This document shows positions 10,185-51,432 of a stretch of DNA of 64,000 nucleotides, piece after piece; the first letter of the stretch is position 1, and every line of letters begins with the position of its first letter. The position numbers and the translations under genes are program-made. The stretch is taken from positions 1,612,001 to 1,676,000 of the forward strand of contig NZ_CP151642.1 in the NCBI RefSeq assembly GCF_038397785.1. Direction: 5' to 3'. The notes beneath the pieces were generated by a model. That model made no database searches and was not told where the DNA came from. It was given only the letters and a program-made list of their open reading frames with translations. The DNA comes from Salinibacterium sp. TMP30 (GTDB lineage: Bacteria; Actinomycetota; Actinomycetes; Actinomycetales; Microbacteriaceae).

Positions 10185-12164
<1,980 letters not shown>

Positions 12165-12168
<4 letters not shown>

Positions 12169-12833
12169 CGCAGCACCATGACTCTCTTCTCGATCGCTCC
12201 AGCTATCAGGCCGAGCGGGACAGTAATGGCAAGGTAAAGAGCAGCCGCGTATACCAGCGTCAATACCACGACGTCGCCATTATCGCGTGCTGCCGCATAC
12301 GTCGCCTTGAAGAGCTCGTCGACAAAGAAGATGCCCGCGACCGAAGTGTTCTTCGTAAGAGCGATAAAAACGTTGATGAGTGGGGGAACAACCATTCGGC
12401 TTGCCTGGGGCATAATCACGAGACCAACGGTCTGGGTGAAACCCATCCCGATACTGCGCGCGGCTTCAGCCTGTCCGACTGGAACACCGTTGAACCCTGA
12501 ACGCACTGCCTCAGCGACGAAAGGCGAAGTGTAGAGAGTGAGACCCAGTACCGCGAGCAGGAAATAGTCGAGGTTGACTCCCAAAATCGGAAGCACATAA
12601 GCGCAGAAAAATAGCACTAAAAGAAGTGGAATGTTACGCAGGATCTCGGTATATACGGTCGCGAAAACCCGCAGCGAAGGAACGGGCGAAATTCTCATAG
12701 CCGCGATGAGCACGCCCAAAATGAATGCACCAACACCAGAAATAGCCAGAAGGGCAAGCGTCAGAAGGAAGCCCTGCATGTAAAGCGGCGTGATGCTAAC
12801 AAGGGCATCAATCGCGTTAGAGATCGCATCCAT
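12165..12833 (-). CDS. gluC: Polar amino acid ABC transporter permease (GluC-like)
   Basis: Second permease of the importer, 222 residues with about five hydrophobic helices and the EAA motif region AVRSGFNGVPVGQAEAARSIGMG. It is shorter than the neighbouring permease and lacks its N- and C-terminal extensions. It follows the binding-protein gene after a 90-base gap containing a strong hairpin, and overlaps the next permease by 4 bases, so the two form the heterodimeric pore. Glutamate is the likely substrate by operon order; other acidic or polar amino acids are possible. Confidence 0.85.
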
Positions 12834-48431: not shown

Positions 48432-49025
48432 GTGATGGTATTTGAGACACCAGAGACCGCACAGCGCGCTCCGGCCAAGGGCCGCATTCTAGAAACGGCT
48501 AACGAACTTTTCTACCAAAACGGCATCCTGAACGTCGGAGTAGACCGCATCATTGCGCAGTCGAGCGTGACGAAGGCAACCTTCTACAAGCACTACCGCT
48601 CAAAAGACAACTTGATTATTGAGTACGTCAAGAGCCGCAGAGCAGCAGTAGAGACCCACGTGCGATCAGTCATCGAAGGCGCAGCTTCCCCTCACGACGC
48701 CGTCCTCGGGCTGCTCGAGGGCGTCGCCGCCGAGCTCACGAAGCACGATTTTCGTGGATGCCCATTCCTCAATGTTGTCGCCGAATTTCCCGACCCCAAG
48801 CATCCCGTGCGTGTATTGATTGCCGAACACCGCGATTGGTACAACGAAGCCCTCTACGAATTGATGCGCAGCGCACATCATCCTTTCCCTGGTGACGCCG
48901 CCGACGAACTCATGCTCGCCAAAGATGGCGCCCTCGCGGGAGGCTACGCCGGTGACACGATTGCTGCGGGAGCGGCAATGGCTAGAGTAGTCAAGCGCGT
49001 GCTCGCCGAATCCGTCAGCGCTTAG
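48432..49025 (+). CDS. TetR-family transcription regulator
   Basis: 197 residues; GTG 48432 lies 6 bases after GGAG, and ATG 48435 is the alternative. The N-terminal HTH is KGRILETANELFYQNGILNVGVDRII...SSVTKATFYKHYRSKDNLI (outlined), a standard TetR DNA-binding domain. The ligand domain has the segment FRGCPFLNVVAEFPDPKHPVRV, shared with LmrA/YxaF-type members. Upstream palindromes probably include its operator. Target genes are unknown; the divergent M16 gene and the aldo/keto reductase are nearest. Confidence 0.88.
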   Translation: MMVFETPETAQRAPAKGRILETANELFYQNGILNVGVDRIIAQSSVTKATFYKHYRSKDNLIIEYVKSRRAAVETHVRSVIEGAASPHDAVLGLLEGVAAELTKHDFRGCPFLNVVAEFPDPKHPVRVLIAEHRDWYNEALYELMRSAHHPFPGDAADELMLAKDGALAGGYAGDTIAAGAAMARVVKRVLAESVSA

Positions 49026-49041
49026 TCAGCCAGCGCCGAAT

Positions 49042-49101
49042 CCGTCAGCATTGAGCCCGTCAGCATTGATTTCGTCAGTATTGATTTCGTCAGCATTAAG
49101 C
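49042..49101. repeat. Four 15-bp tandem repeats after tetR
   Basis: Units at 49042, 49057, 49072 and 49087, each (C/T)CGTCAG(C/T)ATT(G/A)A plus two bases. A related GAATCCGTCAGC also occurs at the 3' end of tetR, so the array may have grown from the coding end. It lies between tetR and the convergent aldo/keto reductase. Confidence 0.85.
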
Positions 49102-50117: not shown

Positions 50118-50331
50118 TTGGGCCTCCCACAAGGCTTTTGGCAAGGATAAAACGAGGGCGACCCGAAAACGTGCAGCATAGCGCGATCGTTACTACTCCG
50201 TGTCGAAAACCGTCTTATCGGGGCGCTGCGACGACATCCAGGGCCGCAGCGGTGTTGCTTCGGTGTCGCTTCGGGCGCATCCTCGCAATAATGGCAACAG
50301 CACAGTGTCAACCTTCGAGAGGACTGCGATC

Positions 50332-50874
50332 GTGAATAACCCGAACTGGGAGCTTCCAGACGTGCCATCATTCGACCTTGAGAGCCCCGATTTTGAGGCC
50401 GGCGGCACGCTGCCGCAATGGGCCCGCTCAGGGATAGCTAACGCTGGCGGGGAAGACCGCTCCCCCACCCTGCACTGGCAGGGCTTCCCCTCGGGCACGA
50501 AGAGTTTCGTACTCACCGTGTTTGACCCTGATGCGCCCACAAGCAGCGGATGGTGGCACTGGGCAGTGTTTAACATTCCAGCCTCGATCGAGTCACTGCC
50601 CCAGAATGCCGGTAGTGCCGACGCGCAGCTACTCCCCAACGGAGCAATCACTCTGCCCAACGACCTCCGACTCGAGTCGTTTCAGGGGGCCGCCCCTCCT
50701 GCCGGCCACGGTGAGCACCGCTACGTCTTTACACTAAGCGCGCTGAACACCGAACTCCTCGACATTCCGGCAGGAAGCACCCCAGCGATGCTGGGATTTG
50801 TCATGCGCGACCACGTCGTGGCGAGAGCCCAGCTGACGGGACTGTCGAGTACCGAGCACGACGCAACTCGCTAG
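50332..50874 (+). CDS. YbhB/YbcL-type PEBP-family protein
   Basis: Phosphatidylethanolamine-binding-protein fold, 180 residues from GTG 50332 (AGAGGA 8 bases upstream). Core motifs FDPDAPTSSGWWHWAVFNIP and GAAPPAGHGEHRYVFTLSAL are those of the bacterial Raf-kinase-inhibitor-like family. Bacterial members have no agreed function. An upstream reading to 50200 is not conserved. It is followed by about 200 bases with a tandem repeat. Confidence 0.88.
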   Translation: MNNPNWELPDVPSFDLESPDFEAGGTLPQWARSGIANAGGEDRSPTLHWQGFPSGTKSFVLTVFDPDAPTSSGWWHWAVFNIPASIESLPQNAGSADAQLLPNGAITLPNDLRLESFQGAAPPAGHGEHRYVFTLSALNTELLDIPAGSTPAMLGFVMRDHVVARAQLTGLSSTEHDATR

Positions 50875-50930
50875 AGGGCGCGCCGCACCCCGCTGAGGGA
50901 CTACGGGACTATAGCGAGAGCGAGAGCCGC

Positions 50931-51084
50931 TGGGTTAGCTGTTCTGGGTTAGCTGTTCTGGGTTAGCTGTTCTGGGTTAGCTGTTCTGGGTTAGCTGTTC
51001 TGGGTTAGCTGTTCTGGGTTAGCTGTTCTGGGTTAGCTGTTCTGGGTTAGCTGTTCTGGGTTAGCTGTACTGGGCTAGCTATTC
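50931..51084. repeat. Eleven-copy 14-bp tandem repeat
   Basis: Unit TGGGTTAGCTGTTC; nine identical copies from 50931 to 51056, then one copy with one change (51057-51070) and one with two (51071-51084). The last copy contains the stop codon of the leftward small membrane protein gene. Since 14 is not a multiple of 3, each copy shifts frame and supplies a TAA on the minus strand. Confidence 0.97.
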
Positions 51085-51281
51085 TGGCGAAAGTAGTGCG
51101 GTACGCGTTCGTAGCCACGGCTGCGCATTTTCGCGACAACCACGCTGACGACCACGACGACCACGACGATGCCGAGAGCCACCCACAGATACCACGCGGT
51201 CTCAAGCCACACGAGCATGTCGCTCATGAACGCATCAAGGGGTGTAGTGATTCGGGTCACAGTCCCACCGTATCGCTCCAA
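51075..51281 (-). CDS. Small single-pass membrane protein
   Basis: Up to 68 residues; the start is uncertain (TTG at 51281, GTG at 51260 or ATG at 51227). A strongly hydrophobic helix VALGIVVVVVVVSVVVA is followed by a basic, aromatic tail MRSRGYERVPHYFRQNS that faces the cytoplasm by the positive-inside rule. The stop codon lies in the last degenerate unit of the 14-bp array. No family was recognised. Confidence 0.6.
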   Translation of the reverse strand: MERYGGTVTRITTPLDAFMSDMLVWLETAWYLWVALGIVVVVVVVSVVVAKMRSRGYERVPHYFRQNS

Positions 51282-51372
51282 TGCGCTCAGATCCCCACCC
51301 TTTGTTAGGGGAGACAGGGGTGACTACCCCTGATTGAGGGATGAAATCGTGTGCTCTGCGTGGTTAACGGAA

Positions 51373-51403
51373 CAGCGCCCACCCTCAAAGAGGATGGGCG
51401 CTG
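51373..51403 (-). terminator. Hairpin terminator after pnp
   Basis: Stem of 9 bp (CAGCGCCCA with TGGGCGCTG), one C/A mismatch, then 4 bp (CCTC with GAGG) and an AAA loop. It starts 29 bases after the pnp stop. On the minus strand it is followed by TTCCGTT, so the T-run is weak. Confidence 0.75.
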
Positions 51404-51432
51404 ATCGTTACTTCGGCTTCGGTGCGTCGAAT

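Follow-up and report, generated by a model that had tools for sequence, protein, structure and literature searches.

The window (the whole 64,000-nt stretch of Salinibacterium sp. TMP30 DNA that was analyzed) contained a tandem array of eleven 14-bp units (50933-51086, minus strand) that extends from the last codons of a small membrane-protein gene across its stop codon into the gap behind it. Very likely, the array is a lineage-specific minisatellite that arose when a segment spanning the small gene's stop was duplicated by strand slippage; it most likely has no function and is probably recent and neutral. The same segment was present only once in close relatives, and the window reduced to a single unit could be aligned with them.

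TRF reported the array at 50930-51087 (period 14, 11.3 copies, 97% matches) with a score of 295. The runner-up array within the window scored 64 and the best array in 20 first-order Markov shuffles of the window scored 77, which confirmed the observation. Across 464 kb of the genome (the window plus 20 stretches), the runner-up score was 160, and the top score in another 400 kb was 113. The units are arranged head-to-tail, read CAGAACAGCTAACC in the minus sense, and encode Q-N-S-stop-CC. Copy-by-copy comparison showed that copies 3-11 (50933-51058) were all identical, that copy 2 (51059-51072) had one difference from the unit, and that copy 1 (51073-51086) had two, in agreement with the nine perfect and two degenerate copies of the original prediction. 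The array had been placed at 50931-51084; the array itself was the same, and only the phase in which the unit is read differs. Allowing at most one mismatch, the unit 14-mer had one extra site in the 2,685,429 bases of the genome (369338-369351, single copy); therefore, the array is a single-locus array. Minisatellites have units of 10-100 bp, repeated head-to-tail in many copies with high identity, and all of these properties were found in the array.

The small membrane-protein gene (51075-51260, minus strand), identified from its ORF and from the alignment, is conserved and ends within copy 1 with the codons CAG AAT AGC TAG. The right-hand degenerate copy thus provides the stop of this minus-strand ORF (TAG, 51075-51077), as had been proposed. 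The gene encodes approximately 61 amino acids from a conserved GTG, the probable start according to the alignment, or 68 amino acids from the listed TTG. The protein has one strongly hydrophobic stretch and showed no match in Pfam or NCBIfam. Homologs were present in 19 of the 27 genus genomes at E < 1e-20 (the window's own among them), a twentieth genome had a chance-level match only, and none was detected in the other seven at the search sensitivity used. The named relatives of the protein were mostly from Salinibacterium species and from the marine actinobacterium PHSC20C1. A gene for a YbhB/YbcL-type phosphatidylethanolamine-binding protein (50200-50874, plus strand) is convergent with the small gene, the two stops being 200 bp apart, and the array occupies most of the gap between them. 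The small gene adjoins pnp; between it and the pnp stop, a strong inverted repeat was seen by eye at approximately 51370-51405, which is likely the end of the pnp transcript.

In the relatives, the gene-end segment and the bases after the stop occurred once only. When the window was cut to one unit, it aligned with nine relatives from the coding end across the stop and into the bases behind it; eight of these alignments were ungapped, and the one with S. amurskyense had a gap of 1 nt. The single-copy unit in relatives from which a minisatellite is expected to originate was thus found. Of the 14 positions of the unit, the gene-end 14-mer of the relative L017 shared 12 and that of L010 shared 11, and the gene-end peptide was Q-N-S-stop in copy 1 and in L010 and Q-T-S-stop in L017. 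The stop-to-stop gap was 200 bp in the window vs. 60-106 bp in all 11 close relatives measured (60, 62, 73, 76, 76, 76, 92, 99, 104, 106, and 106 bp; the loci L041 and L055 resemble each other and possibly come from one strain, and the distant loci L018-L027 were left out). Ten extra units amount to 140 bp, and without them the gap in the window would be 60 bp. The tandem pattern was found in none of the 26 other genus genomes (only in the window's own among the 27), in 1 of 398 family genomes (again the window's own), and in none of the viral contigs searched. As far as the searched genomes show, the array is lineage-specific. Absence from all relatives had been named beforehand as an outcome that would speak against the array, and the array was indeed absent from the 26 other genus genomes; however, because the relatives have intact homologous sites with a single copy, this absence indicates a recent origin rather than an artifact.

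From these comparisons we infer slippage as the mechanism, the order of the events, and the neutrality of the result. The ancestor may be reconstructed as CGC-CAG-AAC-AGC-TAA-CCCAG-CGG, in which two CAG, one the third-last codon and the other right behind the stop, would have been the arms of a seed repeat, 14 bp apart. Mispairing between the two CAG would have doubled the stop-containing 14 bp and, with two copies in place, more slippage could have brought the number to eleven. The array in the window starts with CAG and closes with a partial unit of 3 nt (50930-50932, minus strand), also CAG in the minus sense. This partial unit matches the post-stop CAG of several relatives in the alignment, is presumed to be the outer of the two arms of the seed repeat, and corresponds to the incomplete terminal unit predicted by the slipped-strand model as outlined in PMC3389668. 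A post-stop CAG was seen at the corresponding place in L012, L013, and L016. In L017, the gene-end CAGAC repeats exactly 14 bp further on, so that both seed arms are present, whereas only a single arm was found in L010, L012, L013, and L016. Two points weigh against slippage: the seed repeat measures only 3-5 bp, and the reconstructed ancestor was seen exactly in no living relative, the closest one, L010, having CAC after the stop.

Growth of the array would have been tolerated because every added copy lies behind the first stop, in the noncoding gap of two convergent genes, whereas copy 1 would have remained under protein-coding constraint, with silent drift only. Neither of the two changes in copy 1 alters the product (AAC to AAT keeps Asn, and TAA to TAG keeps the stop), which fits copy 1 still being the coding end; that copies 3-11 are all identical agrees with recent growth at the end of the array distal to the gene. 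The array had been predicted to have spread outward from the gene end, with older copies diverged and newer ones identical. The direction was borne out by the homology of copy 1 to the relatives' gene end and of the sequence beyond the array to their post-stop sequence, and the gradient among the copies was as claimed. The proposed protection of the coding end was correct as an outcome, with a stop in every minus-strand frame, but not as a purpose: the stop recurs in every frame because the unit itself contains one, and the protection is a by-product. The TAA attributed to each minus-strand copy was found in ten copies but not in copy 1, whose functional stop is TAG.

Composition is the point that stands against a neutral minisatellite: the minus-sense transcript of the array has the largest C-over-G stretch of the 47,923 measured on both strands of 464 kb. 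This composition points to a possible effect of the array on transcript ends, although such an effect is, overall, unlikely. In its specific form, the array would be a rut-like Rho loading region that ends the transcript of the small gene before the convergent gene, with copy number tuning the effect; we consider this very unlikely. A site of this type requires RNA that has more C than G, is unstructured, and is free of ribosomes, according to the descriptions in PMC6407284 and PMC9160355. The minus-sense RNA of the array is untranslated, C-rich, G-poor, and unstructured (its fold was no better than that of shuffles, z +1.58), starts directly behind a stop, and is followed by a hairpin with covariation (50889-50907), where the polymerase could pause. 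It also has more C than G over at least 78 unstructured nt, as expected of rut, and the genome encodes Rho (match over the cut-off). However, the length of the C-over-G bubble simply follows the copy number, and when 1500 14-mers drawn at random from the genome were each repeated 11 times, 81 of the resulting arrays were equally C-skewed and unstructured; thus, no selection need be invoked. With steps of 11-13 nt, cytosines formed a chain of no more than three, against 12 with steps of 12-14 nt, with the qualification that the wording of the 11-13 nt rule in PMC6407284 may be read either way. Furthermore, the relatives manage without the array, and, as stated in PMC9160355, efficiency in vivo is not determined by how strongly rut is bound. 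A Rho site was therefore rejected as the main explanation: the composition is extreme, yet it can be reached by chance. The further possibility that slippage at a stop codon had made a copy-number-tunable Rho loading site out of a C-rich gene end, with approximately 150 nt of ideal untranslated and unstructured C-over-G RNA between convergent genes, is, if anything, slightly more doubtful still. If Rho loading did occur, stop-straddling arrays elsewhere in the genome would represent a recurrent way to evolve terminators.

The hairpin itself (50889-50907, minus strand) lies 25 nt beyond the array and is conserved, with a stem of 7 pairs and a loop of 5 nt; it has no T run. Two of its pairs were changed on both sides among the 8 sequences aligned, a set that left out G009, G011, and G041 (by eye, G009 and G011 are without the hairpin), and its covariation score was reached by 20 of 500 shuffles. 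It is possibly a pause or termination element shared by both convergent genes.

That assembly or sequencing had inflated the copy number is highly improbable. The nine exactly identical units are known from one assembly and would be compatible with such an error; nonetheless, the genome is a single contig (99.97% complete), the array is 154 bp long, and the two copies at its edge carry distinct substitutions. We assign the lowest probability to a plus-sense RNA or DNA structure, either a long imperfect hairpin or a G-quadruplex, that would block transcription coming from the YbhB-type gene. The plus-sense RNA of 50870-51090 folded at -97.5 kcal/mol, which was equaled by 2 of 200 shuffles, and GGG recurs every 14 bp. 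However, among arrays built from shuffled units, 42 of 300 were as stable, and much of this fold can therefore be put down to repetition and G/U content; with DNA parameters, the fold was ordinary (98 of 200 as good), and the array had no terminator-like site. Canonical G-quadruplexes with loops of up to 7 were absent, although one becomes possible when loops of up to 12 are permitted. Other identities were rejected: no intrinsic terminator (G+C-rich hairpin followed by a T run) was found on either strand of the array, the Rfam search of the window gave no match to an RNA family, and a tRNA or mobile-element seed was dismissed, as there was no tRNA and the unit occurred nowhere else in tandem in the genomes and viral contigs searched.

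Other tandem arrays were observed at gene ends. At 49004-49101, 1.9 kb from the focal array, approximately six and a half diverged 15-bp units extend from the last codons of a TetR-family gene (48432-49025, plus strand) across its stop and toward a convergent aldo/keto reductase gene; this array shares the anatomy of the focal one and seems older. An unrelated 14-bp tandem duplication was seen in the same gap in a sister clade (L012, 1767-1801, and the matching site of L013) and was absent from L014 and L016. In L086, a minus-strand ORF (10937-12667) has a 24-bp array of 4.5 copies at its 3′ end (10940-11047). In the genome of the window, arrays across a predicted stop numbered 6 of 41 in set 1, where the excess was first noticed (1.95 expected, P = 0.012), and 4 of 32 in set 2, which was drawn later (1.32 expected, P = 0.045). 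Arrays straddling a start numbered zero in set 1 and one in set 2. These counts depend on a crude gene caller that misses small genes, the focal gene included, and for this reason the focal array was itself scored as intergenic. In the relatives, stop-straddling arrays were not unusually frequent (G017, 2 of 22, P = 0.187; G009, 1 of 22, P = 0.88). In this genome, stop-straddling arrays thus seem to be in modest excess (10 of 73 in all), which we regard as a lead only, and the excess would need no other cause than selection against repeats that break the frame at other places in genes.

As far as the listings of our literature search show, nothing was found on Salinibacterium repeats or on stop-codon-seeded bacterial minisatellites. 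The array offers a clean and nearly complete example of minisatellite birth, in which the coding end, the stop, the seed repeat, the single copy of the relatives, and the silent drift of the founder can all be read. It suggests a simple candidate rule for genomes at large, namely that a repeat which breaks the frame can be tolerated if its first copy carries the stop codon, and it could be used as a strain-typing marker if the copy number varies.

Among known systems, the array resembles a Rho utilization site in that C-over-G, unstructured, untranslated RNA is followed by a hairpin. It would differ from one in its cytosine spacing (12-14 rather than 11-13, on one reading of the published rule) and differs in being lineage-specific, and the resemblance is one of sequence features. 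Like the MIRU-VNTR and ETR loci of Mycobacterium tuberculosis, as described in PMC2734929, it is an actinobacterial repeat in a gap between genes that is absent where the gap of the relatives is short. In contrast, the MIRUs of that description have units of 40-100 bp and are scattered over 41 places, whereas the focal array has units of 14 bp at one place and lies in a tail-to-tail gap rather than upstream of a gene. Dispersal of the MIRU type was not observed, with one further single 14-mer (one mismatch) in the genome. A further known kind is the minisatellite or VNTR that is born by slipped-strand mispairing at short noncontiguous repeats, as presented in PMC3389668 after Taylor and Breden (2000) and Haber and Louis (1998). 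The focal array differs from such minisatellites in being bacterial and in having a stop-containing 14-bp unit, its copy number being that of one genome. With them it shares an incomplete end unit and near-identical head-to-tail copies and probably also a short direct repeat with arms one unit apart, as reconstructed for its ancestor. The minisatellite is new as a locus, with a copy number read from a single genome, and known and ordinary as a kind.
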